From NCBI RefSeq assembly GCF_000814025.1, contig NZ_JWLL01000006.1, forward strand, positions 372,001 to 436,000: a stretch of DNA of 64,000 nt, read 5' to 3'. Each line of letters opens with the position of its first letter. Position 1 is the stretch's first letter. This document shows positions 446-32,581 of this stretch, one piece after another. The notes beneath the pieces were generated by a model. The model searched no databases, had not been told where the DNA came from, and saw only the letters and a list, made by a program, of their open reading frames with translations. Source of the stretch: Tateyamaria sp. ANG-S1. GTDB lineage: Bacteria; Pseudomonadota; Alphaproteobacteria; Rhodobacterales; Rhodobacteraceae. Both the position numbers and the translations under genes were made by a program.

Positions 446-1369
446 TCATGAAAAGGATCTGCCATCTATGATCGGGTGGCGAATGGTCCCGATACCCTCC
501 ACATGCGCTTGCATCACGTCGCCGGGCCAAAGCCATTCCTGCGGCTCGCGCCCTGCGCCAACGCCTTCGGGCGTGCCAGAGGCGATGATGTCTCCAGGCT
601 CCAGGGTGATGCCTTTCGACAGGTCCGAGATTAGCTCATCCACCTTGAACAGCATCTTCGCGGTGTTCGAGCGCTGTTTTTCAACCCCGTTCACTGTCAG
701 CCAAAGGTCTAGAACCTGCGGGTCTGGGATTTCGTCCGCGGTGACGATGCAGGGCCCGAACGGAGCATAGGTGTCCATCCCCTTGGAGAAAATCCACTGG
801 CCCGCGCGTCTGTTGTCGCGGGCAGAGACATCGATCATCACGGAATACCCAAACACGTGCTTCAGCGCGTCTTCGCGCCCGATCCGGGTTGCCGTCGTGC
901 CGATGATAACGGCCAGTTCCACTTCCCAGTCGAGTTGCTGTGTCATGTTGCCATCGTGGCGCACAGCATCCCCGGGCCCGATGACGGCTGTGGGTGGTTT
1001 GGAAAAAACCACTGGTTCCTTGGGCAGCGCATCGTCCGTGTCGAGCGCCTTGGCGCTTTCGGTGACGTGATCAAGGTAATTGAGCCCGATGCCAAAGATG
1101 TTCTTGCGCGGTTTGGGGATGGGGGCCAACAGTTTGACTGTTTCAATGGGCAGGGCAAGGGCGCTTCCCCAGTGACCGTCTGCTTCTGAAAGCGCCTGTC
1201 CCAATTGACGGACGGCAACGGGACCGAGGTCAATAAAATCCAGCATGCGGTCGGGAAAATCCATGTCGACAGCTTCGCCAAAGCCAGCAACATCGACCAC
1301 GATCCCGTCTTCGACCACACCCAATCGTGCCGCGGCTTCCACGTCGGTTTTATACGTTACAAGTTTCAT
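446..1369 (-). CDS. fumarylacetoacetate hydrolase (FAH) family protein, probable maleylpyruvate/fumarylpyruvate hydrolase
   Basis: This 307-residue protein has the FAH fold signature: an N-terminal cap, then IFGIGLNYLDHVTESAKA, the metal-ligand region (LDWEVELAVIIG, residues about 146-157) and SGTPEGVGAG near residue 268. The family cleaves C-C bonds of beta-diketo acids using Mg2+ or Mn2+. Its ATG overlaps the TGA of the gentisate dioxygenase gene, which points to the gentisate ring-cleavage product as substrate. No glutathione-dependent maleylpyruvate isomerase is visible beside it, so direct maleylpyruvate hydrolysis is possible, though an isomerase may lie outside the window. The family call is firm and the substrate is inferred from context. 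Confidence 0.9.
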   Translation of the reverse strand: MKLVTYKTDVEAAARLGVVEDGIVVDVAGFGEAVDMDFPDRMLDFIDLGPVAVRQLGQALSEADGHWGSALALPIETVKLLAPIPKPRKNIFGIGLNYLDHVTESAKALDTDDALPKEPVVFSKPPTAVIGPGDAVRHDGNMTQQLDWEVELAVIIGTTATRIGREDALKHVFGYSVMIDVSARDNRRAGQWIFSKGMDTYAPFGPCIVTADEIPDPQVLDLWLTVNGVEKQRSNTAKMLFKVDELISDLSKGITLEPGDIIASGTPEGVGAGREPQEWLWPGDVMQAHVEGIGTIRHPIIDGRSFS

Positions 1370-2484
1370 ATCCGTCCTTGGTCTGCAGTCAGTTGGTGGC
1401 CGCCATTGTCGCCCAGGGCCTCCTCGCGGTAGAGGCCCATCGCCCGGATCACCGGCAGATCATTCAGGCAGAACAGAACTGCGTCGTCCCGATCTGACGT
1501 ATTGCCATGTTCGTGCCAGGCCCAGGAGGGGACGCAGAATGTGTCTCGTTCGGTCCAGTCAAATCTTTGTCCGTTGATAACCGAATAGCCCGATCCCTTT
1601 ACCACCTGGTAGAGATAGCTGCCGGTGTGCCGATGCGCTTTGGTCTGCATGCCGGGTGCCAAAAGTTGCATGCTCGCGCCAAGGGTCTTCATCACCGGGC
1701 CATTATTGATCGGGTTCACGTACTCCATGAGGGTCCCGTCAAAGGGGGAAGGCTCCGCGCTCGCGGCATAGGCCTGCAAAGCTTCATAGGTGCGGCCCCA
1801 TTCATATTTGAACATCGGGCTATAGCCTTTGTCCCACGTACCTCCGCCGGGGGTCAGCCCCGGATTGCCCCAGGTTTTGCTCATGTCATCAACCGGGTAG
1901 GCCACAGGTTCACTGAGGTCGGGATGCACTTCGAAGAAATTCGCCTCCATCGCGTTTACGAACGGGATGTCCAGACCATCCTGCCAGATACAAGGGGTGC
2001 CCGTGTCTTCCACCGCGTGTTCGTGCCAGGTGCCGTTCGGGGTCAGCACAAAGTCGTTCCGCCCAAGCGTCATCTTGTGCCCATCGACAACCGTGTATGC
2101 CCCAGTACCCTCCATGATGAAACGTATTGCAGAGGCAGAGTGGCGGTGCGCCGTGGCCTTCTCTCCGGGGTGCATCACTTGCAGTCCGGCATAGATCCAG
2201 CCAACCGCAGCGGACACGTCTGTCCGACCCGGGTTGTTGAAATAGATGACGCGCCTGCCAGCCTTCTCGGGCGTCACCAATTCAACCGAGCGCAGGACCT
2301 TTCCCCGCAGATCCTGATAGCGCCAAAGCACCGGCACCGATTGGGATTGCGGCTCCCACGGTTCGATCTTGTTGGCGACCGTCCAAAGCGCGCCGGTGTG
2401 ATGGCCGCTGAGTTCATCGTAGTATTGCAGCAGTTCCGGCGTGTCTTCGACATTGGCCCGTCCTACAACGTCTTCGCGTGTCAT
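1366..2484 (-). CDS. gentisate 1,2-dioxygenase (bicupin)
   Basis: The product is about 372 residues with two cupin domains. The first holds the Fe(II)-ligand pattern HRHSASAIRFIMEG...NGTWHEH typical of gentisate 1,2-dioxygenase; the second cupin has KAHRHTGSYLYQVVKGSG and SWAWHEHGN. The enzyme opens gentisate between C1 and C2 to maleylpyruvate. I chose the ATG at 2484 rather than an upstream GTG at 2514, because a TATAAT-like -10 at 2522-2527 would put the transcript start at about 2515, and GAGG precedes the ATG. It is the first gene of an operon with the FAH hydrolase and the flavin reductase. Confidence 0.9.
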   Translation of the reverse strand: MTREDVVGRANVEDTPELLQYYDELSGHHTGALWTVANKIEPWEPQSQSVPVLWRYQDLRGKVLRSVELVTPEKAGRRVIYFNNPGRTDVSAAVGWIYAGLQVMHPGEKATAHRHSASAIRFIMEGTGAYTVVDGHKMTLGRNDFVLTPNGTWHEHAVEDTGTPCIWQDGLDIPFVNAMEANFFEVHPDLSEPVAYPVDDMSKTWGNPGLTPGGGTWDKGYSPMFKYEWGRTYEALQAYAASAEPSPFDGTLMEYVNPINNGPVMKTLGASMQLLAPGMQTKAHRHTGSYLYQVVKGSGYSVINGQRFDWTERDTFCVPSWAWHEHGNTSDRDDAVLFCLNDLPVIRAMGLYREEALGDNGGHQLTADQGRI

Positions 2485-2521
2485 ATCTTGGGTCCCTCGG
2501 GGGGCGTGTCTCACCTTTAGG

Positions 2522-2562: not shown

Positions 2563-3012
2563 CTAGTCGCGGGCTTCGGCTTGCCGCAGCAAATCGCGGA
2601 TGACGTCCAGTTGCGGATGGTCAAGGGTTTCAAATATCTCGTTTATGACAATCTCGTGTCCGCGCGCCTGTTCTTCAAACTCGGCTCTGCCTTTCTCCGT
2701 CAGGGCCACATTCACCACGCGGCGGTCGTGTTCGGTTGGCTCGCGGGTGACCAGGCCATCGCGCTCCAGCATGTTCACGATGGTCGAGGAGTTGCCGTTT
2801 GAAACCAACAGCAGCTTGCTGAGATCCCCGATATTGAGCGGCTCATCACTGCGATAGAGGGCCGCCATGACATCGAACCTTGGCAGGGTCGTATTGTGCT
2901 CCACCCGCATGTATTCGCGCAAACGCTTCTCGGTCGCACGGGTAAGGCGCAGCAGGCGCAACCAGGTGCGAAGCCTGCGGCGGGCGAGGGGCGTCTGTTC
3001 AGTCAAAAGCAC
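2563..3012 (-). CDS. MarR family transcriptional regulator
   Basis: This is a winged-helix MarR protein: LRLTRATEKRLREYM, then TLPRFDVMAALYR, the recognition-helix region LLLVSNGNSSTIVNMLERDG and the wing RDGLVTREPTEHDRRVVNV. MarR proteins usually repress neighbouring catabolic genes and are released by a phenolic ligand or its CoA ester. It lies just upstream of the gentisate dioxygenase on the same strand and is the likely local regulator. It is clearly paralogous to the MarR gene at 39004, sharing TLPRFDV and KVSNGN/LVSNGN motifs. The start is uncertain: no ATG is available; GTG 3012 gives 149 residues, and TTG 3063 is the alternative. The stop is TAG. Confidence 0.85.
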   Translation of the reverse strand: MLLTEQTPLARRRLRTWLRLLRLTRATEKRLREYMRVEHNTTLPRFDVMAALYRSDEPLNIGDLSKLLLVSNGNSSTIVNMLERDGLVTREPTEHDRRVVNVALTEKGRAEFEEQARGHEIVINEIFETLDHPQLDVIRDLLRQAEARD

Positions 3013-3279
3013 GGTCCGTTCGTTCGGTTGCCGTAAGTTACCTAGGCAAAATCCGCGTTTCAAGCGATGGTGGAACCGGCGCCGTGCTCAATCTGTTTTG
3101 GGTTCAAGCTGGTTCGTTGGTTTTCTGGGAGTGCCTTGCTCTGTCGATAAGAGTTCCTGGTCCGCAAGATCAGGCATGGCAATGCAGGTCTGATCACAAA
3201 TGCTACGAAAAGGTGGCCGATGCCCAAGTGGCGTCAACTGCATCCAAGCCAGATCAATTCGGGGTTCAGTGAGGCGGGT

Positions 3280-3969
3280 CTAACGGACTGGCGTGAGCCG
3301 CTGCGCAATCTCATCGACGGTGTAGACATCGCCAAATTGCTGAATGATCGTTTCAAGCGCGGCGCGATGTTCTTCGTCTGATAGCGCCGCGGTGGCGTCG
3401 GATACCATGACCACATTGAAATCCATCATCATGGCATCGCGCGCGGTGGACTCGCAGCAGACATTTGTCTTGGTCCCGGTGATGAGCAGTGTGTCGATCC
3501 CCAAAGATCGCAGGATCCGCTCCAGCGGCGATGATCCAGGGATCAGTGCAGAGTAACGGTTTTTCATGATTTTCAGATCGTCTTCCTGCACATCCAGACC
3601 TTGCCAGATCTCCTGACCCGGGCTGCCGGGCGCCATGCTTTGGATCGTGCGGGCGCGGATGTCGTCAGAGACGAAATTGTCGAAAAAGCCTGCCCAGTCA
3701 CTTGCGCCGTCCTTGTTCTGGTTGGCGTGGTTGACCCAAATGACATGGCCGCGCTGTGCGCGCATGATCGCGTTGAGACGGTTGATCGGCTCCAGCAGCC
3801 CCCTTGACGCCGGGACCTCCGCCGGCCCGCCCTCGGCACAGAATGTCGCCTGCATATCAATGACAATCACCGCTGTCCTGGCGGGATCAAAGCTGTCGAA
3901 GAGGTGCACCTTCCCACGCCGCGCGATCACGCGGTCCTTGATTTCCTGGCGTATCCCTGTGGTGTGCAT
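3280..3969 (-). CDS. cysteine hydrolase, isochorismatase-like family
   Basis: The 229-residue protein carries the isochorismatase-fold triad in its usual order: Asp in VIVIDMQATF (about residue 38), Lys in DLKIMKNRYSA (about 137), and Cys in TGTKTNVCCESTARDA (about 172). Relatives hydrolyse amides, N-carbamoyl compounds, ureido compounds or enol ethers, so the family does not fix the substrate. It is divergent from the TetR-reductive-dehalogenase operon, and its upstream region holds one copy of the 37-bp element also found before the CoA ligase operon. It probably belongs to that regulon. The stop is TAG. Confidence 0.85.
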   Translation of the reverse strand: MHTTGIRQEIKDRVIARRGKVHLFDSFDPARTAVIVIDMQATFCAEGGPAEVPASRGLLEPINRLNAIMRAQRGHVIWVNHANQNKDGASDWAGFFDNFVSDDIRARTIQSMAPGSPGQEIWQGLDVQEDDLKIMKNRYSALIPGSSPLERILRSLGIDTLLITGTKTNVCCESTARDAMMMDFNVVMVSDATAALSDEEHRAALETIIQQFGDVYTVDEIAQRLTPVR

Positions 3970-4071
3970 TGCAGGTGCTCCTGTTTTGCTAATCCTTGCG
4001 TAAACGAAGGTACGTTCCCTTGTTCTATCTTAGATGGATCAAGGGTTTAGCACAGGGGGTCAACAAATATG

Positions 4072-4108
4072 TTAAGCTTGACGTAATCTATACAAAAACG
4101 TATACAAA
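4072..4108. promoter_or_regulatory. 37-bp putative operator, copy 1 (hydrolase/TetR divergent promoter)
   Basis: This 37-bp sequence matches 12557-12593 at 33 positions. It opens with TTAAGCTT and ends with TATAC, six bases, then GTATACAAA, so it contains a TATAC/GTATA inverted repeat and two TATACAA direct repeats. It lies about 100 bp upstream of the hydrolase start and about 255 bp upstream of the TetR start. Spacing and conservation in non-coding DNA suggest an operator, probably for the adjacent TetR protein. Confidence 0.6.
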
Positions 4109-4187
4109 ATCCCATCGAAGCTTTTTCCAGCCCTTGCCGCGCAGGTTGCGCGCCATTCAGGACGCCTTGATGCTGACAATTTTCTTT

Positions 4188-4199
4188 ATTGGGCCCAAT
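4188..4199. promoter_or_regulatory. 12-bp perfect palindrome upstream of the TetR gene
   Basis: ATTGGGCCCAAT is a perfect palindrome about 165 bp before the TetR start, in the 394-bp intergenic region. It may be a second regulator site. Nothing beyond its symmetry and position supports this. Confidence 0.25.
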
Positions 4200-4363
4200 G
4201 GTGTTGCCAATGAGGCTGAATTCAACGGCGTTGTAGCTCCAATAGGGGCTGCTAGCGCCAATGGTATTCCTCAGATTGATGCGGGGCACGGTGTCGCGAT
4301 GGCGAGCCAGGCCACCAAGCCCGATGGGCTGAGCGGCGTTCGCATCCGGTCGCGTAGCTGATC

Positions 4364-4975
4364 ATGGCGCAAGCGAAAACCTCCACTGCGACGAGAGCGT
4401 ACACCCGCAGCGGTCGGGATGGTGCGCGTGTCTGGATCATTGGCGCGCTCGATATGCTGGTGCGCGGTGGCGTTGGCGCGATCAAGGTCGAACGGCTGGC
4501 GAGTGAGATCAACGTCTCTAAGGGCAGCTTTTACTGGTTCTTCCGCAACACCGATGAGTTGCTGCGCCGGAGCCTGGAACACTGGCGGGAACACCTGAAC
4601 AACGCAGTGTTCGAAGAGGTGCGCGCCTCGCAAGGGCCGGTCCAGGATCGACTCTGCGATATGGTGGATATGGTGCTTCAGTCGCGGCTCGGGCGCTATG
4701 ACGCTGCCATTCGCGCGTGGGCCACGACGGATCAGAACGTGCAGGCGATTGTGTCCGAGGTTGATCAGGAACGGCTTGCATTTCTGGTAGAGCTTTTCGA
4801 AGAAGCCGGGCTGGCACCTGATCTTGCGGCGCAAAATGCGCATCTTTTTTACCGAGCTTTCATCGCGGAATCCTACCTTCGTATGTATCCCGGCGCGGCC
4901 AAGAAGGGGGCCTATCTGAAAGACCTGCTTGGGATTCTTCTGACTGCACCCGCGTCGCAAAACTATCGGGAATGA
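4364..4975 (+). CDS. TetR/AcrR family transcriptional regulator
   Basis: The 203-residue protein has a TetR DNA-binding domain (residues about 20-70): ALDMLVRGGVGAIKVERLA, then the helix-turn-helix INVSKGSFYWFFRNTDELL. The C-terminal half is an all-helical ligand/dimer domain. The gene is followed after 9 nt by the first reductive-dehalogenase-like gene on the same strand and is divergent from the cysteine hydrolase. It is the obvious candidate to bind the shared 37-bp element at 4072 and 12557. Its ligand is unknown; an aromatic acid or its CoA ester would fit the context. Confidence 0.9.
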   Translation: MAQAKTSTATRAYTRSGRDGARVWIIGALDMLVRGGVGAIKVERLASEINVSKGSFYWFFRNTDELLRRSLEHWREHLNNAVFEEVRASQGPVQDRLCDMVDMVLQSRLGRYDAAIRAWATTDQNVQAIVSEVDQERLAFLVELFEEAGLAPDLAAQNAHLFYRAFIAESYLRMYPGAAKKGAYLKDLLGILLTAPASQNYRE

Positions 4976-4984
4976 TGCCGCGCG

Positions 4985-6013
4985 ATGGATGCTCTTGAGG
5001 TCAAATCCATCGCCAAGACCCTTGGTGCAGACCTTGTCGGGATCGCCAGCGCAGAGGTGTTGAATGCACATCCGCCTGACCCGAAGGTCCCCCAGACGCC
5101 GGACCGTATTTCCCCGCACTGCAAAAGTGTGATCGTCATCGCCAGCCGTATCCCGGTTGCGGCCTTTCGGGCCAAGTCCAGCGTGGCCGTGCAGTACATG
5201 GACATGCTGGTGTTGCGGCGCATGGACAAGATATCCCATCGGCTTGCGACGCGATTGGAAGAGGCGGGGCATCCCAGCTTTGTCACGGCCGCGCAGGAGA
5301 CTGACTGGGACTATAAGCGCGCGAGCTACGGCAGGCTTTCGACCCGCCACCTTGGGGTGGAGGCTGGTCTGGGCACACTTGGCCTTGATGTGAATATACT
5401 GACGCCCGAATACGGGCCGCGCGTCTACCTGACCGGCATTCTGACGGAGCTGGAACTTGAGCCCGACGGCAAGACGACCGAGCAGGTCTGTATCGGAGAA
5501 AGCTGCTCGCGCTGTTTGCATTCCTGTCCCACCGACGCGGTCGAGCATTTCAATCTGAACAAACGCGCTTGCGCGCAGGCTGCTCAGGAGTTCGGCTTCA
5601 TGACGTCGCTTGCACTGTGGGAAGCCATGGTCGACGGCGATGCGACGCGAAAGAAGGAGTTGATCGCAAGCCGGGATATGTTTGGTTTCTGGCAAGGCAT
5701 GCTGCGGGTCGTGGGGTCTTTCGGGGACTGCCCGCGCTGTCTGGCCGTGTGTCCGGTGGGCAATGACTACCATGCCTTTTTGGCCAAGCCGCAGAAGGTG
5801 ATCCCGGAAAAGACGCCCGAGAAAGTGGCCAAAGCCCAGGCATTTAAAGCCGCGCGCTTGGCGGGCGAGCCTGTGACCGGCTTGTCGGATCACAACAAAC
5901 GTTGGGTCGGCGAAGAGGGGTATCAGGGGATCGTCGCGCGCCAGTTAAAGGGCTTCAAAGCGGCGCAGAAAAAGCGCGCCGAAGACGCAGAGCAGCCGGG
6001 TGCTGATACATGA
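4985..6013 (+). CDS. QueG/reductive-dehalogenase-like double-[4Fe-4S] protein 1
   Basis: The 342-residue protein resembles the catalytic module shared by epoxyqueuosine reductase and reductive dehalogenases. It has KTLGADLVGIA near the N-terminus, the cobamide-region signature VEAGLGTLG...TPEYGPRVYLT (residues 125-150), a first Fe-S motif with Cys169, Cys174, Cys177 and Cys181 (CIGESCSRCLHSC), and a second with Cys249, Cys252 and Cys256 (CPRCLAVCPVG). No Tat or Sec signal is visible, so it should be cytoplasmic. Its stop overlaps the start of the next paralogue. The reaction is not known; it could be reductive removal of a halogen or another leaving group, or an accessory electron-transfer role. 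Confidence 0.75.
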   Translation: MDALEVKSIAKTLGADLVGIASAEVLNAHPPDPKVPQTPDRISPHCKSVIVIASRIPVAAFRAKSSVAVQYMDMLVLRRMDKISHRLATRLEEAGHPSFVTAAQETDWDYKRASYGRLSTRHLGVEAGLGTLGLDVNILTPEYGPRVYLTGILTELELEPDGKTTEQVCIGESCSRCLHSCPTDAVEHFNLNKRACAQAAQEFGFMTSLALWEAMVDGDATRKKELIASRDMFGFWQGMLRVVGSFGDCPRCLAVCPVGNDYHAFLAKPQKVIPEKTPEKVAKAQAFKAARLAGEPVTGLSDHNKRWVGEEGYQGIVARQLKGFKAAQKKRAEDAEQPGADT

Positions 6014-7002
6014 CGGTGATGTTCCAGGAACCGATCGCCGCCTCGGACATCAAGGACAAGGCGCGCAGCCTCGGGGCGGATTTGGTCGGTATTGCCGATG
6101 GTCACATCATGAACGCGCATCCGCCCAATCCGCGTGTGCTGCAAACACCAGAACGGATCACGGATCATGACGGCGACCGCTGCATCGTGATGGCGAAACG
6201 GTACAGCGTGGGCACGACCCGGCTGCCGCGCGTGGATGAGCGACACAAATACTACAACGACGAACTGACCCTGACAGAGCTTGAAAGCATCTCGCTTGAA
6301 ATGGTGCTGTGGCTGGAGGACCGGGGATATCCGGCGTTTATCATTCCGCCAACCCATGTCGACCCTTGGGTCTATTTCGGAGAGCCGGATCAGCATGTAG
6401 AGACGATCCTGTCGCTGACCCATGCCGCGGTTGAGGCGGGCCTTGGCACTTTGGGCATGGCCGAGCAATTGATTACTCCCGAATATGGCCCGCGCGTTCT
6501 GCTAACCGCCGTTCTGACCTCCGCACCCGTTGAAGCAGATACCAAGCGGACGGACGCCCTATGTCTCGGGGCCTCATGTGGGCGCTGCGTGCAAACCTGC
6601 CCGGCCGACGCCGTGCATCATTTCGAACGCGACTGGCAGGCCTGTGACACCCATCGCTCGCCACATGGGTTTCGCGCACTGGCAGACCACTTGTCGCGCA
6701 TTATCGACGAGCCGGACCCGGCAGAGAAAAAGAAGATGCTGCGCAGCAAGGATCAATTCTACATCTGGCAATCCATGTTGCGCGGTGCCGGTGTGGTGAC
6801 GGGCTGCAGGCGGTGCCAGGACGTGTGCCCGGTCGGTGAAGACTATACGCGCCTGTCTGACGTGTTGGACGATATACCAGAAGCCACGCCCGAAAAGGCC
6901 GATCGGGCCGCAGCCTACTACATGGCAGAGCAGGCCGGTGAACTGCCCCCGAGTTATCACAAAGCCGCACGCTGGATGGGTGCCTTCCCCTCCAAAGATT
7001 GA
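6010..7002 (+). CDS. QueG/reductive-dehalogenase-like double-[4Fe-4S] protein 2
   Basis: This 330-residue paralogue of the preceding protein starts with ATGA overlap. It shares ARSLGADLVGIADGHIMNAHP, HAAVEAGLGTLGMAEQLI and TPEYGPRVLL, a first cluster motif CLGASCGRCVQTCP, a second CRRCQDVCPVGEDY and the same C-terminal TPEKADRAAAY pattern. It diverges strongly from its neighbour in the middle, as expected for subunits or enzymes with different substrates rather than a recent duplication. There is no signal peptide. Co-translation of two similar Fe-S proteins suggests they work together, possibly as a heteromer, but that is inference. Confidence 0.75.
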   Translation: MTVMFQEPIAASDIKDKARSLGADLVGIADGHIMNAHPPNPRVLQTPERITDHDGDRCIVMAKRYSVGTTRLPRVDERHKYYNDELTLTELESISLEMVLWLEDRGYPAFIIPPTHVDPWVYFGEPDQHVETILSLTHAAVEAGLGTLGMAEQLITPEYGPRVLLTAVLTSAPVEADTKRTDALCLGASCGRCVQTCPADAVHHFERDWQACDTHRSPHGFRALADHLSRIIDEPDPAEKKKMLRSKDQFYIWQSMLRGAGVVTGCRRCQDVCPVGEDYTRLSDVLDDIPEATPEKADRAAAYYMAEQAGELPPSYHKAARWMGAFPSKD

Positions 7003-7031
7003 CGTGCGCATCTGAAAGGAGCGGCACACTC

Positions 7032-8390
7032 ATGAACAAGGTCGCAGATACCAAACCAGCAAAGCTGCTGTTTCCCGAGCAAGCCCAAGCGCCTGCGCAG
7101 AACGAGCCGTTTGCAAACTCCAAGAACATCGAGATTACGCCGGAGTTCAGCGGGTTTCATCAGCACAACGATATGTTCAGCCGGGGGTTTTGGGACAAGG
7201 GCTTCGCCAACAGGATAACGATGCGGTTCTTTCGGTCTTTTGTTAAGCCCAAGGAGCGGATGCGCGACGAAGAGGGTTTTGGGCAGGAGGACTTTGCCGT
7301 GCGCAACGGCCCCTGGGTCGTAACCGAGATGTTTGCGGAGATGAAAAAGCACGATGACCGCCGGGAAGGCTTCACCGATGATTTCAGCCCGCATATCCCG
7401 CCTAAGGTCGAGCCCATGGACATGGGCAGTCCGGCCAAAGCCACGAAGCGCGTCAAGAAAGTGGCCAAGCTGTACGGGGCTGATCTGGTGGGCATTACGG
7501 CATATGATCCACGCTGGACCTATCGGTCGAAATTCAGCGCGCGCAAGATCGCCTCAAAACCGGTCGAGATCCCTGCGGAAGTGACCAATGTGATCGTCCT
7601 GGGCAAAAGTATGCGGCACGACGTCGTGCGCATGTCACCAACAGCCACGGCGGCGACCTCATCTGCTGCGGGGTATGCCGAGGATGCGATCACCTTGCTG
7701 GCGTTGGCGCAGTACATTCGCAGTCTCGGCTACATCGCCATTGCCAATCAGAACGACACGAACCTTGCCATTCCTTACGCTATTCAGGCGGGGTTGGGCG
7801 AATACGGGCGAAACGGGCTTTGCATCACGCGGGAATATGGTCCCCGTGTGCGCTTTGGGCGTATCCTGACGAATATGCCGCTGGACCACGACAAACCGAT
7901 TGCCTTCGGGGTTGAGAAAACCTGCGAAATATGCCGTCGCTGCGCCAACAATTGCCCGCCTCAGGCGATAGATCACGGCCCTCCCAGTACGTACACGTTC
8001 AACCGCTCAAATACGCGGGGCATCAAGAAATGGACCACGGACGGCGAGAAATGCTTCAAGTTCTGGGTGTCGCGCGGCAGCGATTGCGCCAATTGCATCC
8101 GCACCTGTCCCTACAACAAGGAGTTCGACAAGCTGTGGTCGAAGGTCCTGCGCTTTTTGCTGTCGACCCGGCTGCGCAAGCTTGCCCTGCATCTGGATGA
8201 CAAGACCCGGATGCATGATCAGATCAAACCCTCCAGCTGGTGGGCGTCTGAAAAGGGGCCGTTCACCGTACTGGAGCGTGCGAAAGATCATGCGTTGATG
8301 CCGGATCTGAAGGGTCAGCAGGATCGCATAAAGGCCATCCGCGATGCCAAGCGCGCCAAGGCTGAGGCGGAAGCGGGCGCTGCCGATTAA
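7032..8390 (+). CDS. reductive dehalogenase-like (RdhA family) iron-sulfur protein
   Basis: The product is about 452 residues from the ATG at 7032, chosen because AAAGGAG sits 11 nt upstream. The C-terminal 310 residues look like RdhA: KLYGADLVGITAYDPRWTY, then AGLGEYGRNGLCITREYGPR (residues 253-272), a cluster motif with Cys298, Cys301, Cys304 and Cys308 (CEICRRCANNCP), and a second with Cys341, Cys352, Cys355 and Cys359 (CANCIRTCPYNK). RdhA enzymes use a base-off cobamide for reductive dehalogenation. No twin-arginine signal and no RdhB anchor are seen, so this would be a cytoplasmic type. It is the last gene of the TetR operon and ends 9 nt from the converging TRAP gene. Confidence 0.8.
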   Translation: MNKVADTKPAKLLFPEQAQAPAQNEPFANSKNIEITPEFSGFHQHNDMFSRGFWDKGFANRITMRFFRSFVKPKERMRDEEGFGQEDFAVRNGPWVVTEMFAEMKKHDDRREGFTDDFSPHIPPKVEPMDMGSPAKATKRVKKVAKLYGADLVGITAYDPRWTYRSKFSARKIASKPVEIPAEVTNVIVLGKSMRHDVVRMSPTATAATSSAAGYAEDAITLLALAQYIRSLGYIAIANQNDTNLAIPYAIQAGLGEYGRNGLCITREYGPRVRFGRILTNMPLDHDKPIAFGVEKTCEICRRCANNCPPQAIDHGPPSTYTFNRSNTRGIKKWTTDGEKCFKFWVSRGSDCANCIRTCPYNKEFDKLWSKVLRFLLSTRLRKLALHLDDKTRMHDQIKPSSWWASEKGPFTVLERAKDHALMPDLKGQQDRIKAIRDAKRAKAEAEAGAAD

Positions 8391-8399
8391 CAGGTGGCC

Positions 8400-9716
8400 C
8401 TAGCGTTGTATGAGGCTGGGCAACCACAGGGCAATCTGCGGGACAGCCAGCAAAAGCAGCAGTACCATCACTGACATAAGCAGGAAGGGAAAGACCGAAG
8501 CCACGATCTGGCCTAACGTCGTGCCCTTGGGCGCTGCGCCCAGCATGACGAAGAGCAGCAGGCCAAAGGGAGGCGTCGCAAGGCTGATCTCAAGCACGAG
8601 CAGCATCAGGACGCCGAACCAAACTGGGTCAAACCCAAGGGCGCTGACAAGTGGCAGATAGAGCGGCACGGTCAGCAGGATCATACTCACCTGATCAATG
8701 AAACACCCCAGCAGCAAGGTCAGCCCAAGCATCCCGAGAAGGATAATGTAGGGTGCCAGATCAGCGGAGAGGATCAGGCTGGACAGCCCCCGTGTTGCAC
8801 CGGAGAACGACAGGATTTGCGAAAACGTGAGCGACCCTGCGACCACGAACAGGGTGAGGGTTGAGTATTTCAGCGTCTCAACCAGCGCCCGTTTTAGCCC
8901 CTCGATGCTTAAGGCGCGATAGGCTGCCGCCGCGATTAAAGTGGCCAGAACGCCCAGGGCCGCGCTTTCCGTGGGTGTTGCAAGCCCCGTGATGATGGAG
9001 CCCACGACGACAAAGAAGATCCCCAGAAGCGGTACAACATCTCGGAAGAAGGGCACCCAACGGTCACGCAGGCTTATCTCTTCAACCGGGTAGGCGGGCG
9101 CAAGCGTCGGGTCGATCGTACAGCGCAGGATCACGTAGAAGAAGTATAGCGCGGCCAGGATCAGGGCAGGGATGATGGATGCCAGCAGCAGCTCTGCGAT
9201 AGGGATGCGAGCGACCGAACCGAACAGCACGGCCAGAGCCGAGGGCGGGATCAGCATCGCGATCCCGCCGACAGCCACGATGGGGCCGATTGCAATGGCG
9301 GGTTTATAGCCGCGCTTGAGCATTGCGGGCAGCAAGGTTGAGCCAAGCATGGCTGTGTTGGCAATGGTACTTCCGGACAGGGAGGAAAAGACGGTGCCGC
9401 CCAGGATCGCAAGGATGGAGAGCCGGCCAGGGACCCGGGAAATCAGCCGATCCATTGCCGCGATCGCGCGACCTGCGACGCCGGTGTGAAACATCACCTC
9501 ACCCATCAATATGAACAGGGGGATCGGCAACAGGGAAAAGGACTGCACCCCATCGACCATGGAGCGCAGGAACTGCAGCACCCCCGGATCGCCGCGCATG
9601 AACACGACCGCGCCCAGAATGTTGACGCCAAAAAACGCGAATGCCACAGGCAGTCCGGAGGCCATGAGCACCAGCAAACAGCCGATCAGCATCGACAGCG
9701 CCCAATACCACTCCAT
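8400..9716 (-). CDS. TRAP transporter large permease (DctM family)
   Basis: The 438-residue membrane protein begins MEWYWALSMLIGCLLVLMAS at the ATG at 9716, which overlaps the TGA of the small permease. I reject the in-frame extension upstream because it lies inside that gene. It has about 12 hydrophobic segments and DctM features such as SGSTIANTAMLGSTLLPAM and IPPSALAVLFGS. It couples substrate import to the sodium gradient together with DctQ and DctP. The operon with a CoA ligase suggests that the cargo is an organic acid that is activated on entry. The stop is TAG. Confidence 0.92.
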   Translation of the reverse strand: MEWYWALSMLIGCLLVLMASGLPVAFAFFGVNILGAVVFMRGDPGVLQFLRSMVDGVQSFSLLPIPLFILMGEVMFHTGVAGRAIAAMDRLISRVPGRLSILAILGGTVFSSLSGSTIANTAMLGSTLLPAMLKRGYKPAIAIGPIVAVGGIAMLIPPSALAVLFGSVARIPIAELLLASIIPALILAALYFFYVILRCTIDPTLAPAYPVEEISLRDRWVPFFRDVVPLLGIFFVVVGSIITGLATPTESAALGVLATLIAAAAYRALSIEGLKRALVETLKYSTLTLFVVAGSLTFSQILSFSGATRGLSSLILSADLAPYIILLGMLGLTLLLGCFIDQVSMILLTVPLYLPLVSALGFDPVWFGVLMLLVLEISLATPPFGLLLFVMLGAAPKGTTLGQIVASVFPFLLMSVMVLLLLLAVPQIALWLPSLIQR

Positions 9717-10183
9717 CAGGCGGTCTTTCTTGCGGCGTTGCGCAGAAACACCAGCGCCATCAAGGCGAAGGTCACGGGCGGCAGCACGAACAGCCACCAT
9801 TGCGGATAGACCAGCATCCTGTAGACCTGTGTGTCCGCCGTATAGGAGCCGACGAGAACCCGCACCGCATAGACGCCAAGCAGGGCGCAGATCGCGCACC
9901 CCAAGAGGTTCACGAGCCGTTCCACAAGCGCGCGTAGTCGGTCGGGCAGCGTCATGACCAGCGAATCTACTGCAATGTGCGCCCCTTCGCGCAGCACCCA
10001 CGGAGCGGCGAGGAACGTCATCACAAAAAGGGATACGGAGGCGATGTCACCGATCCAGGTGATGTTTATGATCTGCATGTACCGCACCGCCACATCAACG
10101 CAGAGCAATAGTGTCACCACCACAAGCAGAGCCCCTGCCAGCACGGCAAGTGCATCAATCACCCTGTCGAGCGCGCGTGCCAC
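9716..10183 (-). CDS. TRAP transporter small permease (DctQ family)
   Basis: The 155-residue protein has four predicted membrane helices and the DctQ pattern: LLVVVTLLLCVDVAVRYMQI, then ITWIGDIASVSLFVMTFLAAP, WVLREGAHIAVDSL and a C-terminal hydrophobic helix. It overlaps the large permease gene by an ATGA junction and follows the binding-protein gene by a few nucleotides. It bridges the large permease in the inner membrane. Nothing is unusual. Confidence 0.9.
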   Translation of the reverse strand: MARALDRVIDALAVLAGALLVVVTLLLCVDVAVRYMQIINITWIGDIASVSLFVMTFLAAPWVLREGAHIAVDSLVMTLPDRLRALVERLVNLLGCAICALLGVYAVRVLVGSYTADTQVYRMLVYPQWWLFVLPPVTFALMALVFLRNAARKTA

Positions 10184-10186
10184 AGG

Positions 10187-11140
10187 CTATTCCGTGCTGA
10201 CCAATGGGCGCAGCGCGCTCACGTCCTCTTCGTTCTGCTCCAGCAGGAATTGCCAGTAGCTCTCATGCGCGGCGCGCCGGAACTCCGGCCCGAGGTCGAT
10301 ATACTCGATGCCAGCCGCCCTGATCTTGTCGTCTTCCTGCGCGTTCCGCTCTTCCAGCCAAAGCGGCCATTGCGCCTCCATCCAGAGCGCTTGTTCGTTC
10401 AGGCAGGCGCGTGCCGGTTCTGGCAGGGTGTTCCAGCGGTCAAGGTTGCTTAGGATTGATATCGATACGTTCATAAAGCCGGGACCATGCTGGTACTTCA
10501 CGATCTCTTCCCAGCCAAAATCAGTGACGCCCCAACTGGGCCAGCCGAGCCCGTCAACTGTGCCGCGCTCAAGGGCGGTGTAGACATCCGGGGGCGGGAT
10601 CTGGACCGTGGTGGCCCCAAGCGACTGAAAGAACGTCTCGAACAAGGGCGAGGTGCGCAGGCGGGCATTGTCAAAGCGACCATCGTCCGACGGTTCTTTT
10701 GTCCAGGCGAAGAAGCTGATGCCGTCGCCATATGCGGTCAGGAATTGCGCGTTCATTTTTTGATTGTGAAGCTTGTTCAGCAGCTCCCACGCGCCATTGG
10801 TGCGTTGTTCGGCCATTGGCACGTTGCCCAAGACCAGCGTGTCCACCTCAATCATATCACCCTTGTAGTAGGTGCCGGGTGAGGCCAGCAGATCCAGCAC
10901 GCCGATCTTGAGCGCATTGGGCTGTTCGAACGATCCGATGGCGTCCGGGCCGGTTACCTCAATAGCCACGTGATCCGCGCAGACGTCGTTGACATGATCA
11001 ACCCATCGTATGAAGGGGACAGAGAACGCCGCTTGTGGTGGCAGGAATACACCGGCTGTCAATGTCACCGGCTCGGCAGTGGCCGAGGCGGCCGCCATTG
11101 CTGTCAGGGCTGTGGCTGCAAATGTCGTTCTCATCGTCAT
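10187..11140 (-). CDS. TRAP transporter substrate-binding protein (DctP family)
   Basis: The 317-residue precursor has a cleavable signal peptide (MRTTFAATALTAMAAASATA, then EPVTLT). The mature part has DctP features: QPNALKIGVLDLLASPGTYY, and LRTSPLFETFFQSLGATTVQ followed by PPDVYTALERGTVDGLGWPS, which contains the region of the conserved substrate-carboxylate Arg. It is periplasmic. Two ATGs (11140 and 11134) are possible; GGGA before 11140 favours the longer form. It is encoded between the CoA ligase and the two permeases in one leftward operon. Confidence 0.9.
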   Translation of the reverse strand: MTMRTTFAATALTAMAAASATAEPVTLTAGVFLPPQAAFSVPFIRWVDHVNDVCADHVAIEVTGPDAIGSFEQPNALKIGVLDLLASPGTYYKGDMIEVDTLVLGNVPMAEQRTNGAWELLNKLHNQKMNAQFLTAYGDGISFFAWTKEPSDDGRFDNARLRTSPLFETFFQSLGATTVQIPPPDVYTALERGTVDGLGWPSWGVTDFGWEEIVKYQHGPGFMNVSISILSNLDRWNTLPEPARACLNEQALWMEAQWPLWLEERNAQEDDKIRAAGIEYIDLGPEFRRAAHESYWQFLLEQNEEDVSALRPLVSTE

Positions 11141-11196
11141 TTTTCCCGTTGTTGAGTGTTGGCAGATGTTGGTGGGCGGTCTCCTTCAGGATCGTG

Positions 11197-12501
11197 CTAG
11201 CCGCGCAAATCCTGAACGCGCTGGGGCTTAAAGGCGCCTTCAAACGACTTGGCGATGGCACCCGGAGCGCTGACAACAATCCGGGGAGCCACACCAAACA
11301 CCCGACGGATTTGTGCCTTGATGCGCTCCTGACCCGTGGTGTCATCCGCCGCGCCGGTCAGTTCGACGTGGATGTCAAGCTCGTCCCGGTCGTCTTGCCA
11401 GACCACTTCGACGCGGAAATCAGCGACATCGTCGCTGTTGAACATTAGATCTTCCAGATCGCCGAAGGAGATGTTCACGCCCCGGACTTTGACGAAACCG
11501 GCAGTGCGGTGGGTATGCTTGATCAGGGGAAAGACGTCATAGGCCGTCCCCCGTTCGATGCCGGTGCGCATGGTGACGATGTCGCCGGTATTCCACCGAA
11601 TAAAAGGTGTGGCGTTGTTGGTGACCAAGGGCGTGACCACCAGCAAACCCGGCTCTCCCTGGGGCACAGGCTCCAGTGTGGTTTCGTCCAGAACCTCCGG
11701 GTAGCAATAGTCCGACCAAAAGCGGAAGCCGTCACATGCATCGTCTTCAGCGCCCAGCATCATCACCTCTGTCATGCCGTAGCAGTCGCGCACCTGCGCG
11801 TTCCACAAGCTGGACAGTTTGCTGCGTTTCGAGGGCGACAAGGGCTCGGCCGAGCAAAGGATGCGCTTTACGCTGGCACTGGCCAGGTCGAACCCATCAG
11901 CGCGGGCAAGGTTTGCAAGCTGGATCCCGTAGCTTGCCATTCCGATCCAGGCAGAGGGTTCAAACATGCGCAGCAGATCAAGCTGACTGTCCGAGCGAAG
12001 GGTATTTCCGCCCCCGGCCCAGACCATTCCGATGCCCATATCCGAACCCGACCGCGCCATCATGTGGCCAGCGGGATGAATGCCAAGCGGCATCGACATA
12101 TGCGCCACGTCATCGGCAGTAAATCCGGCCAAATCCAGTGCACGCTTGAAACCGATTTGACCGTATTTGATGTCTTCTGCGGTGCGGGGATAGAACAGCG
12201 GTGTTCCAGTTGAGCCGCCAGAGCGCCAGAACTCGGTTATGTCGCGACGGTCACCAAGGCAGAAATTGTCGTAGAAGGACTTGGGCGACAACGCGCGCAG
12301 TTCTTCCTTGTCCAATATCGGAATTTTTGCCCATTCGTCATCATCGGTGACGGCGTCTGGATTTATGCCGTCCAACCTACCTGCAAAGAACGGCGCCCTG
12401 CGTGCCTGTTCGAATGCGGTTCGGCGCCTTTCTTTTTGTCTTGTCTGTAGTTCAGCTTGCGCTGTTGGGAGGTCCAATTCAGACCGCTGCGCTGACGTCA
12501 C
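11197..12501 (-). CDS. PaaK-like AMP-dependent aryl-CoA ligase
   Basis: The protein is about 434 residues, close to phenylacetate-CoA ligase. It has the P-loop FWRSGGSTGTPLFYPR (about residue 95), YGMTEVMMLG and FIRWNTGDIVTMR (the adenylate-binding Asp), and a C-terminal RHTAGFVKVRGVNISFGDLE-type segment. It would convert a carboxylic acid, ATP and CoA to acyl-CoA in the cytoplasm. I chose GTG 12501 because GGGGAAG lies 8 nt upstream; TTG 12531 is the alternative. It heads the operon with the TRAP transporter, so it probably activates the imported substrate. The stop is TAG. The substrate is unknown. Confidence 0.85.
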   Translation of the reverse strand: MTSAQRSELDLPTAQAELQTRQKERRRTAFEQARRAPFFAGRLDGINPDAVTDDDEWAKIPILDKEELRALSPKSFYDNFCLGDRRDITEFWRSGGSTGTPLFYPRTAEDIKYGQIGFKRALDLAGFTADDVAHMSMPLGIHPAGHMMARSGSDMGIGMVWAGGGNTLRSDSQLDLLRMFEPSAWIGMASYGIQLANLARADGFDLASASVKRILCSAEPLSPSKRSKLSSLWNAQVRDCYGMTEVMMLGAEDDACDGFRFWSDYCYPEVLDETTLEPVPQGEPGLLVVTPLVTNNATPFIRWNTGDIVTMRTGIERGTAYDVFPLIKHTHRTAGFVKVRGVNISFGDLEDLMFNSDDVADFRVEVVWQDDRDELDIHVELTGAADDTTGQERIKAQIRRVFGVAPRIVVSAPGAIAKSFEGAFKPQRVQDLRG

Positions 12502-12556
12502 TGTGTCTTCCCCATCATTGCGTCCAGCCAACAGGCTGGTGTACCGCGAAACTATA

Positions 12557-12593
12557 TTAAGCTTAAACTAATCTATACAATAACGTATACAAA
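12557..12593. promoter_or_regulatory. 37-bp putative operator, copy 2 (CoA ligase-TRAP promoter)
   Basis: It is 33/37 identical to 4072-4108 in the same orientation relative to a leftward gene, and lies about 55 bp before the GTG of the CoA ligase. The four differences fall in the spacer after TTAAGCTT (three) and between the TATACAA repeats (one). The strict core suggests one shared DNA-binding protein, most simply the TetR protein at 4364. Confidence 0.6.
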
Positions 12594-12599
12594 GCAAGG

Positions 12600-13085
12600 A
12601 ATTCCTCTGAAAGCCTTGCCTTTGGCAATCGCACTCCGTGGCCGCGCGTCCACAAAGCACATGACTTAATCACCATGCACCAACTCGGCGTCTTCAGATG
12701 CTGAAGCAATGGTGGCGCTTGATGCAAAAAACACGCAGATTATGGCCTCACTGCTGGGCGCAGGGATGGCGTTTGCCTTAAAAACGGCAGCCGCAATTGC
12801 AGCTGATGCGACGCTGAAAAACTCTACATCGCCGCCGCGAAGCTTGCGGGGCTACGCCCCGACCTTGTTTGGCCTCATCGTTGTCGTGCTGACCGAGACA
12901 CGTCTGATCACTCCGCTTGTGGGGCTAATGTCTTTGTGCTGAAAGGTGCTGTCGGCGATGTGCTTGCGGGGAGGAGTTGCCGCGGTGTAATGCCGTTCTG
13001 GGTTGCTGACATCACTCGGTTTATCCAGTTGCTCGCGGTGCCCGCTGTCGCACCGTATTTGCCGACGCAAATGCGACGGCAGGTG
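12600..13085. other. 486-bp stretch without a recognisable gene
   Basis: Open frames here are short, do not resemble any family I recognise and lack convincing ribosome sites. A GGGGC-TAC-GCCCC hairpin lies at about 12848-12860. The stretch may hold promoters for the ligase operon or eroded coding DNA downstream of the thioesterase. I see nothing more definite. Confidence 0.4.
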
Positions 13086-13517
13086 CTAGAAACCCAACTC
13101 TTCTTGCGGAGTGACCCAACCTTGAAGCGTGTCACGCACGGCATCCGGCCAGGGGATCGAGCTGTGCTTGTCCAGATCGCTGGCGGCCAGAACCTGTGTG
13201 CTGGTCCAGCGTTGCTGTCCCTCGCAGCTGATCTGGTGGCGCAGTGTGACTGAAGACCTGCCCAGACGGATGACGCCAAGGTCAAAGGTCAGGGTTTCGC
13301 CAAACATGGACGGTTTTGAGAAGTCGCAACTCAGGTGCACGGTCGGTGTGCCCCAACGCTCGTTCCAAATAATGTCATGCCACGGGAAGCCGATATGGGT
13401 CCAGAACTCCTCGTTCACACCGTTCAGGATATTGACGTAGGCCGGGAAGTAAGCGGTGCCGGAAATGTCGCAGTCGCCGAACCGGAGTGCGCGGTCTGTG
13501 CTGAAGATCTTTGTCAT
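13086..13517 (-). CDS. acyl-CoA thioesterase, 4-hydroxybenzoyl-CoA thioesterase-like (hot-dog fold)
   Basis: From the ATG at 13517 the product is 143 residues, a single hot-dog domain. It starts MTKIFSTDRALRFGDCDISG, with the conserved Asp in FGDCDISGTAYFPAYVN at the position of the catalytic Asp of 4HBT enzymes, then WGTPTVHLSCDFSKPSMFGE and a central beta-strand region. It would hydrolyse an aryl- or acyl-CoA in the cytoplasm. It is the last gene in the leftward run that begins with the FAD oxidoreductase and ABC genes, and it lies about 580 bp upstream of the CoA ligase start on the same strand. Its partnership with either cluster is unproven. Confidence 0.85.
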   Translation of the reverse strand: MTKIFSTDRALRFGDCDISGTAYFPAYVNILNGVNEEFWTHIGFPWHDIIWNERWGTPTVHLSCDFSKPSMFGETLTFDLGVIRLGRSSVTLRHQISCEGQQRWTSTQVLAASDLDKHSSIPWPDAVRDTLQGWVTPQEELGF

Positions 13518-13599
13518 GTACGAAATCGACTTTCGAAGTGGTTTTGACCGCAAGAGGATGTGCAAATTGCGCGGATGTGAACCCCAAAATGCGCAAAAT

Positions 13600-30551: not shown

Positions 30552-31754
30552 TCAGGTTACACGCGCTTTGCGCTTGTATTCGGGTGTATCCCAACGGCGG
30601 TTTTTCAGCACGTCCTCAAGCACATCGACTGCCGCAACGACATCATCATCGTCGATATAGAGTGGCGTAAAACCAAACCGCATGATGTTGGGTGCGCGGA
30701 AATCTCCGACAACACCGCGTGCGATAAGCGCCTGCATGGCGGCATAGCCATTCCCGAACGCGAAGGACACTTGGCTGCCACGCTCATTCGCGTTGCGTGG
30801 GCTGACCAGCGTAAGGTCGGGGCAGCGCGCCTCAACCTCTTTTATGAACAGATCACAAAGCCGGATCGACGCTGCGCGGATGTCGGTCATATCTACGTTG
30901 TCCCAAACAGACAGCGCGTGTTCCAGCGCGGTCATTTGCATCACAGGCGGTGTCCCCACACGCATGCGTCCGATCCCGGGGGCAGGGCGGTAGTCGGGTT
31001 CGAACGCAAAAGGCGCATCGTGGCCCAGCCAACCGGCAAGGGCTGCGTCCATCGTCTTTGCCACGTCGGTGCTTGCATAGATAAACGCCGGGGCACCCGG
31101 GCCGCCGTTGAGATACTTATAGGTGCATCCCACCGCAAATTCGCAGTTTGAGCCGACCAGGTCGACCGGAACCGCGCCTGCACTGTGGGCGAGGTCCCAC
31201 AGCATCACCGCACCAGCATCGTGTGCTGCCTTGGTGATGGCGTTCATGTCGTGCATGCGGCCCGTGCGGTAGTCAACTTGTGTGATCATGGCGACGGCCA
31301 CGGTGTCATCCATCGACATCGCGACATCCTCTGGGGCGACCACGCGCAGTTCATAGCCTTGGCCAAGTTGCTGGATGAGCCCTTGCGCCATGTAGAGGTC
31401 AGATGGGAAATTGCCGCTGTCGGAAAGGATCACCCGGCGGTTTGGGCGCATCTTCAGCGCGGCAGACAGCGCCTGGTACACCTTGACGGAAAGCGTATCA
31501 CCCATGGTCACGCTCCCCTCCGGCGCACCGATGAGACGTCCCACCATATTCCCGACCCGTTCTGGCTGCGCCATCCAGCCATCCCGGTTCCAGCCGGTGA
31601 TCAGGTGACTGCCCCATTCCTCGGAAACCATGGCGGCCAAACGCTCGTTTGTTCCTTTTGGCAGAGGGCCAAGCGAGTTGCCGTCGAGATAGATCATACC
31701 CTCGGGCAGGTGGAACTTCTCCTTCACGGGAAGGGTATAAACCGCGTCTTTCAT
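30552..31754 (-). CDS. kynU: kynureninase
   Basis: The 400-residue PLP fold-type I enzyme has [20 protein letters not shown] at the N-terminus, the cofactor Asp region [15 protein letters not shown] and the Schiff-base Lys in [17 protein letters not shown] (about residue 223). It cleaves L-kynurenine to anthranilate and alanine in the cytoplasm. Its ATG overlaps the TGA of the tryptophan dioxygenase gene, so the two are co-translated. Its product feeds the anthranilate-CoA ligase at 41433. Full length and intact. Confidence 0.95.
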
Positions 31755-32581
31755 AGCTGACCTCTCAGGTGCCAGAGTTCGGGGAACAGCTCGACCTCGA
31801 GCATTTTGCGAAGATATTTGACGCCGGACGTGCCGCCGGTCCCGCGTTTGAAGCCGATGATCCGTTCCACTGTTGTGACGTGGTTAAAGCGCCAACGGCG
31901 AAAGTAATCCTCGATATCGACCAGCTTTTCGGCCAGTTCGTAGAGTGACCAATACGTCTCCGGGTTCTCATAGACCGTCGTCCAGGCATCAATGACAGCC
32001 TGGTCCGCCTTATGCGGCTGATCCATTTTGTAGATGCCCGGATCAAGGGTTATGCCAAGACCGTTGGCCAGTTGATCGAGTGCCACATGGTACATGGATT
32101 TGCGCCGCATCTCTTGACCCAGCATGGTGTACAACTCCGGCCGGTGTTCATGAACCTTCATCATTGCAGCATTGCGGTTGCCGAAGATGAATTCGATCAG
32201 TCGGTACTGGTGTGACTGAAAGCCCGACGATTTGCCCAACTCATCGCGGAAGGCGGTGTATTCGCTTGGCGTCATGGTGCGCAGCACGTCCCACGCGCTG
32301 TTCAGCTGCTCAAAGATCCGTGCCACGCGTGCGAGTTTTTTGAAGGTGGGCGCGAATTGTCCGGCGGCGAGCTCTTCCCGCGCTATTGCTAACTCATGCA
32401 GGGCCAGTCGCATCCACAGCTCCGACGTCTGATGCTGGATGATAAAAAGCATCTCATCGTGGGCATTCGACTGGCGGTGCTGGGCCCCGAGGATCGGATC
32501 AAGCGCAAGGTAGTCGATATAAGACATGTCCTTGGCGAAAGACATCTGCGCGCCGTCGGAAGAGGGGTCATAGGCGGTCAT
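31751..32581 (-). CDS. kynA: tryptophan 2,3-dioxygenase
   Basis: The 276-residue heme dioxygenase has [20 protein letters not shown] (distal His region), [35 protein letters not shown] and the C-terminal [16 protein letters not shown]. It opens the indole ring of L-tryptophan to N-formylkynurenine. It overlaps both the GntR gene upstream and kynU downstream. No intact formamidase gene accompanies it, which leaves the second step of the pathway unassigned. Confidence 0.95.

Follow-up and report, generated by a model that had tools for sequence, protein, structure and literature searches.

Background

The 4-chlorobenzoate pathway is made up of a ligase, a crotonase-type dehalogenase and a thioesterase. 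A stretch of 64,000 nucleotides from Tateyamaria sp. ANG-S1 (contig NZ_JWLL01000006.1, positions 372,001 to 436,000; hereafter the window, in whose numbering its features are given) has a ligase and a 4HBT-type thioesterase (13086..13565, minus strand; PF13279) in common with that pathway, but where the pathway has a hydrolytic dehalogenase of the crotonase type, the window encodes a predicted reductive enzyme of the cobamide type. This enzyme, F3, is the last of three proteins of the QueG/RdhA superfamily, F1, F2 and F3, whose genes touch or overlap 3' of a TetR gene (4364-8390), while a tripartite ATP-independent periplasmic (TRAP) transporter (8400-11140) and a PaaK-like aryl-coenzyme A (CoA) ligase (11197-12531) are encoded on the opposite strand and converge on F1-F3. 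Here we report that the ligase is the best-supported link to these iron-sulphur (Fe-S) reductases.

With NpRdhA and the other fused NADPH-dependent reductive dehalogenases (RDases) F3 shares a related fold and, as predicted, a non-respiratory character, but it is without their C-terminal reductase domain. The sampled genomes of the family commonly contain frames longer than 1,000 residues of which a part is RdhA-like, and these are probably of this fused type. The unfused catabolic RDases without a twin-arginine translocation (TAT) signal include Ros_A3X954 from Roseobacter sp. MED193, which is reported to convert 2,6-dibromophenol to 2-bromophenol and to be highly sensitive to oxygen (PMC13101508). 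A relative of F3 in a family genome (L035, 44% identical to F3) has the cluster motifs printed for this debrominase, CDICTKCADACP and CAICMRVCP, and would belong to the same RDase family. F3 differs from Ros_A3X954 in that the six window-type F3 proteins form a separate clade (support 100, branch of 0.92 changes per site) and in its position near a CoA ligase. The 12 loci of the Roseobacter type contain neither the ligase nor a gentisate-type ring-cleavage dioxygenase (GDO) nor tryptophan genes, yet a related F3 gene in another locus (L148) lies 8 kb from a GDO gene. Furthermore, the eight pocket residues printed for T7RdhA/A6RdhA of Acidimicrobiaceae, which has been proposed for perfluorooctanoic acid (PFOA) on the basis of docking, map to aromatic and arginine positions of F3 at a constant offset of 13, six of the eight being identical in a comparison by hand (PMC10008544). 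This suggests that T7RdhA is a member of the F3 family, as judged from the residue numbers rather than from the T7RdhA sequence. F1 and F2, finally, have the same two-cluster set of cysteines as QueG and, in an alignment by eye, its active-site tyrosine, but they differ from it in scoring far below the QueG cut-off, in occurring beside a separate QueG of their own genome (424 bits) and in forming an operon-like run with a CoA ligase.

Results and Discussion

The genes named in the original prediction, which had been made from the letters of the sequence alone, are real, as all of them are open frames at or near the positions assigned to them and match the expected families. That prediction had envisaged a cytoplasmic dehalogenase-type enzyme, and for F3 (7032..8390, plus strand) this is borne out. 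F3 exceeds the curated cut-off of the RDase model TIGR02486 (179.2 vs 160.35 bits) while staying below that of Pfam PF13486 (14.8 vs 24.3 bits), and its profile and sequence matches include the structures 4uqu and 8q4h. Aligned to PceA (4uqu), its residues Tyr226, Asn252 and Arg285 stand at the places of PceA Tyr246, Asn272 and Arg305 (counted by hand), the active-site roles of which are taken from PMC4646009, and these three residues as well as eight cysteines are invariant across 20 sequences, F3 and 19 relatives. The predicted model of F3 (predicted local distance difference test, pLDDT, 77.9; predicted template modelling score, pTM, 0.82) has 8q4h as its best match in Foldseek (E 2.5e-25, template modelling score 0.65), along with PceA and NpRdhA and then QueG. 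The frame is open from 6999, and the ATG at 7032, preceded by AAAGGAG, is a more likely start than the TTG at 6999.

Features of the respiratory and of the fused enzymes were not seen. No twin arginine is apparent by eye in the N-terminus of F3, and there is no room for an RdhB gene at F3, with F2 touching in front and the TRAP genes 9 bases behind, the rest of the genome not having been searched for one; the protein has 463 residues, of which the Fe-S match ends at 373, and no further domain. A search of the genome with PF13486 gave no match, which is uninformative as there was none in 14 control genomes either, and among 20 plasmid records none matched F3 with 80% cover (best 34%). The genome holds CobI/CbiL. 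Sequence and model together thus identify F3 as a real, unfused, cytoplasmic and predicted non-respiratory RdhA, which most likely removes a halogen from an amino- or hydroxy-substituted benzoate; the long branch that leads to its clade would fit a changed substrate.

F1 (4985..6013) and F2 (6010..7002), the first and second gene products of a conserved tandem on the plus strand, had been grouped with F3 as RdhA/QueG-like proteins. This holds at the level of the superfamily, whereas by TIGR02486 F3 is an RdhA and F1 and F2, with 34.5 and 38.0 bits, are not. Both are likewise far below the cut-off of 200 of the QueG model TIGR00276 (58.0 and 39.3 bits). Eight cysteines and one tyrosine (Tyr71, F1 numbering) are invariant across 16 F1/F2 sequences, and in an alignment read by eye Tyr71 corresponds to the active-site tyrosine of QueG and PceA. 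By their sequences F1 and F2 are members of the QueG/RdhA superfamily (class III B12 enzymes) that are distinct from both the RdhA and the QueG families and possibly form a new enzyme branch within it. Structure prediction, proposed at the outset for all three proteins, gave for F3 a fold like that of PceA and NpRdhA and for F1 a poor model, to which we return below.

The distribution of these genes was followed in two samples, 394 genomes of the family and 190 genomes of the class, and in a scan of named genomes at loose limits, in which 350 stretches encode an F3 relative and 80 were kept, 5 as close and 75 as wider F3 loci. The close loci, with F3 69% or more identical, stem from Aestuariivita (L044), Sulfitobacter (L045), an alphaproteobacterium (L046), a member of the Rhizobiaceae (L047) and one of the Rhodobacteraceae (L048, judged by length and position on the same contig as the one in family genome G250). 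The window ligase (11197..12531, minus strand), which matches PF00501 and PF14535, misses the cut-off of the PaaK model TIGR02155 (155 vs 646 bits) and can therefore be called PaaK-like only. Its type occurs in 2 of the 394 family genomes (E 1e-100 or less), and these are the same two that have F3 at 71% or more; among the family matches listed, 54 F3-family places are below E 1e-40, of which the other 52 are only 33-51% identical. Within 10 kb of a close F3 the ligase is found in four of the five loci. Clusters keeping only the ligase without the Fe-S proteins were not seen in the family sample, both genomes with the close ligase having a close F3 as well.

The tandem leads to this type of ligase by another route. 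F1 is present in 1 of the 394 family genomes, the own one (E 1e-40 or less), and in 7 of the 190 class genomes (E 1e-30 or less), namely the own genome and six that belong to five further families. In all six of the latter F1 (67-71% identical) is directly 5' of F2 (58-61%), an arrangement also found in L044, and in five of them F2 is followed 3' by a ligase that shares 46-49% identity with that of the window and overlaps F2 in three genomes by 4 to 31 bases (frame or hit coordinates); in the sixth, no ligase is present on the 2.4 kb of contig that remain 3' of F2. The tie between Fe-S reductases and ligase that the original prediction had proposed therefore stands, on the ligase near F3 in four of five close loci, on the matched presence in the family and on the F1-F2-ligase runs. 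As F3 and F1-F2 each occur with the same type of ligase, and mostly apart, the most plausible reading is that they reduce acids which this ligase would activate, either as alternatives or in addition to each other.

The uptake genes and the ring-cleavage genes fared differently. The TRAP transporter consists of a large permease DctM (8400..9698, start approximate; PF06808, TIGR00786 over cut-off), a small permease DctQ (9716..10183; PF04290) and a solute-binding protein DctP (10187..11140; PF03480, NF037995 over cut-off), all on the minus strand. No TRAP transporter of this type was found within 10 kb of any of the five close F3 genes, L047 having a DctM at 33%, and L044, L045 and L048 carry in its place an ATP-binding cassette (ABC) transporter of the branched-chain/urea type (74-89% alike). 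Uptake genes are thus near F3 in close relatives, as TRAP uptake had been predicted to be, but we reject TRAP itself as a core part, given the ABC transporter in three relatives. The gentisate operon of the original prediction is represented upstream by genes for GDO (1366..2514, minus strand) and for a fumarylpyruvate hydrolase-like hydrolase of the FAH family (446..1369, minus strand), 79-80% relatives of which adjoin GDO in L044, L045 and L048, but GDO stays below the curated gentisate cut-off (313 vs 442 bits). GDO together with FAH lies within 10 kb of F3 in three of the five close loci. L045 unites ABC uptake genes, two thioesterase-like matches, ligase, GDO, FAH and F3 within about 11 kb.

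Within the same 10 kb an isochorismatase-type gene is found in two close loci and F1-F2 in one (L044). The isochorismatase-family cysteine hydrolase of the window (3280..3969, minus strand; PF00857, 145.6 bits) has relatives of 81% in L044 and 74% in L048. A bifunctional aryl-CoA hydroxylase/oxidoreductase, encoded in the window at 35982..38276 (plus strand; NF006101, 1302 bits, over cut-off), is within 10 kb of F3 in three close loci, adjoining it in L044 and L047 and lying 6 kb off in L048; this enzyme is widespread, being over the cut-off in 10 of 12 such genomes.

We propose that these genes form a cytoplasmic module for aromatic acids, a reading to which we give an even chance of being right. 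An aromatic acid would be taken up into the cytoplasm by the transporter of the module and activated as a CoA ester by the PaaK-like ligase, and the cobamide/2[4Fe-4S] enzymes would reductively remove a ring substituent ahead of ring cleavage. As a non-respiratory RdhA, F3 would most likely dehalogenate a benzoate that carries an amino or hydroxy group. F1-F2 would work with the same type of ligase, on their own in other bacteria, and the substituent that they probably remove would be a related one, be it a halogen, a hydroxyl or an amino group, on the free acid or on its CoA ester. The product would then enter the gentisate-type route or the neighbouring anthranilate-CoA route. What is shown are the gene content and its conservation, the linkage to the ligase and, for F3, the predicted fold and the active-site residues, while we infer the cofactor loading, the substrate class, the order of CoA activation and reduction, and the downstream route.

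Several observations weigh against the module. The count of the ligase in the 394 genomes depends on the E limit chosen. In L046 none of the partners looked for lies within 10 kb of F3 (73%), and 8 kb separate the ligase of L047, part of another unit, from F3. GDO occurs in 28 of the 394 family genomes (E 1e-150), just 2 of them with a close F3, and because it is so frequent without one we reject it as a specific partner of F3; ring-cleavage genes are near F3 in close relatives. At the place of PceA Arg305, F1 has Tyr148 and F2 Leu165, so that the RdhA arginine is missing, and the QueG aspartate is missing from both as well (by eye). The model of F1, made from four sequences, has a pLDDT of 49.6 and is too weak for a fold search. 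Ros_A3X954, finally, acts on a free phenol and shows a marked sensitivity to oxygen (PMC13101508).

A different role for F3 is suggested by genes of tryptophan breakdown, a context that the original prediction had not noticed. F3, and perhaps F1-F2, may dehalogenate halogenated forms of tryptophan, kynurenine or anthranilate for the kynurenine and anthranilate-CoA genes, the gentisate genes being mere neighbours, an explanation which we consider possible though doubtful. The window itself holds genes for a kynureninase (30552..31754, minus strand; TIGR01814 over cut-off), a tryptophan 2,3-dioxygenase (TDO; 31751..32581, minus strand; TIGR03036, 375.4 bits, just below the cut-off of 390.7) and an operon-like aryl-CoA run of the hydroxylase/oxidoreductase, an SDR protein, an enoyl-CoA hydratase, an acyl-CoA dehydrogenase and an enzyme of the benzoate-CoA ligase family, read as anthranilate-type (41433..43055, plus strand; TIGR02262, 350.5 bits vs cut-off 375.25), followed downstream by a thioesterase and RidA. 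The kynureninase gene, however, is 22 kb from F3. The gene order of L047, where the hydroxylase/oxidoreductase operon follows F3 directly and the opposite strand carries TDO and kynureninase 3-5 kb upstream, is the strongest hint at tryptophan within the F3 clade of the window; the other four close loci are without kynureninase and TDO within 10 kb.

In the 75 loci of the wider family (F3 41-49% identical) neither the ligase nor F1-F2 was found at the limits used. In 22 of these loci, or 24 if the SNF transporter is counted, F3 is near tryptophan or tyrosine genes, a count for which the genes were picked after inspecting the loci and no random stretches served as control, and which covers at least three same-genome pairs (L082/L086, L055/L063 and L113/L121) and many contigs with flanks cut short. 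F3, kynureninase and TDO follow one another on the same strand in an operon-like manner in L078 (3279-6536), L079 (10001-13232) and L092 (4817-8031), and in L114 a kynureninase gene is directly 3' of the F3-family gene on the same strand. In L109, L112, L118 and L122 a MarR gene is 5' of F3 and a gene of the PrnB family is nearby (PF08933, 598 bits for L118, the one tested; the others by similarity to L118). PrnB is named after an enzyme of chlorotryptophan conversion. Three of these four loci, and L123, also have a distant relative of kynureninase. Tryptophan/tyrosine permeases are near F3 in L095, L099, L104, L109 and L112, and a PALP enzyme, which looks like the tryptophan-synthase-beta type (PF00291 tested on L055 alone), adjoins F3 in five Binatota loci (L050, L052, L055, L058 and L063) and in L121. 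Homogentisate 1,2-dioxygenase is near F3 in L082, L083, L086 and L107 (Pfam tested on L082); the same four loci also contain likely tyrosine catabolism genes and the SNF transporter. Moreover, L143 has a kynureninase 3' of the ligase in its F1-F2-ligase run.

The linked state changes at least 7 times on the tree, as estimated by a quick method over many weak forks. On the other hand, tryptophan or tyrosine genes are near F3 in none of the 12 Rhodobacteraceae loci of the Roseobacter type, and kynureninase is over the cut-off in 35 of the 50 genomes of F3 loci searched for it, regardless of its position, compared with 2 of 14 control genomes, and near F3 in 4. These 4 stand against 0.23 expected (Poisson P 1e-4), a figure that needs care because all four of the true kynureninase neighbours belong to a single clade. 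A link between RDases and tryptophan was not on record in the open-access literature searched. In the window, a two-gene indolepyruvate-type oxidoreductase (23629-27311) lies beside an FAD oxidoreductase and an arylformamidase-like gene (20770-23144). L148 has an arylformamidase-like gene, an indolepyruvate-type oxidoreductase and a GDO, all resembling their counterparts in the window (2758-9396), 8 kb from an F3-family gene (17804-18923; 40-50%, two matches).

It is also conceivable, though in our judgement unlikely, that F1-F2, or all three proteins, are not dehalogenases and that what they strip from an aryl-CoA is a hydroxyl or an amino group, comparable to the removal of the epoxide oxygen by QueG. 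The scores of F1-F2 below both curated cut-offs and the replacement of the RdhA arginine would agree with this, as would their operon-like runs with the CoA ligase, one of which includes kynureninase and another RidA (in L142, RidA is 5' of F1 and an ABC transporter 3' of the ligase). Yet a hydroxyl or amino substrate is putative, and F3 itself resembles a dehalogenase.

Very improbable is a third explanation, in which F1-F2 would serve F3 in electron transfer or maturation, all three forming one dehalogenase complex. The genes do overlap in the window, and F1-F2 adjoin F3 in L044, but in none of the six other F1-F2 genomes is F3 present within the 5.5-19 kb examined around the tandem. A full-length gene of the F3 family (41-46% identical) is found on other contigs in two of the six. 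The other four lack a full-length match at E 1e-10, three of them showing partial matches only (E 1e-24 to 1e-29) and the fourth no match at all; conversely, F3 is without F1-F2 in four of the five close loci. Since each mostly occurs without the other, we regard F1-F2 as unlikely partners of F3. Least credible of all is that RdhA, ligase and gentisate operon are adjacent by chance, for although neither TRAP nor GDO is tied to F3 and L046 has F3 alone, the ligase and the close F3 match in presence over the 394 genomes, the neighbourhood repeats in four of five loci and the F1-F2-ligase runs recur.

Two regulators are also encoded here, one of the TetR family (4364..4975, plus strand; PF00440), a 60% relative of which is directly 5' of F1 in L044, and one of the MarR type (2563..3063, minus strand), a 62% relative of which adjoins F3 in L045. 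Farther away the window encodes an MttB-family methyltransferase (56001-57545; PF06253, 786 bits), possibly corrinoid-linked, which scores 272 bits against the cut-off of 525 for the trimethylamine enzyme, and a radical SAM protein that matches the N-terminal domain of lipoyl synthase (60138-61082).

Conclusions

Taken together, what the original prediction had observed is confirmed and its interpretation is partly supported. According to PMC4646009, there may be additional families dependent on B12 and [4Fe-4S] that have no recognisable motif, and a concrete candidate for such a family, with a clue to its substrate, is the conserved run of F1, F2 and ligase. A bolder proposal, which we consider speculative and rather unlikely to hold in full, would make F1-F2 a third branch of B12/iron-sulphur reductases that strip halogen, hydroxyl or amino groups from ligase-made aryl-CoA thioesters, and at the same time the wider F3 family one of aromatic amino-acid dehalogenases across many phyla that clean up tryptophan in halogenated form or the products of its breakdown. 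The F3 family, a wide one, includes a proven debrominase in one of its groups, and a natural substrate was not found for it in the literature examined. Should T7RdhA belong to it, as the residue numbers suggest, the family also bears on the RdhA discussed for per- and polyfluoroalkyl substances (PFAS). The repeated placement of F3 near tryptophan and tyrosine genes makes its natural role directly testable.

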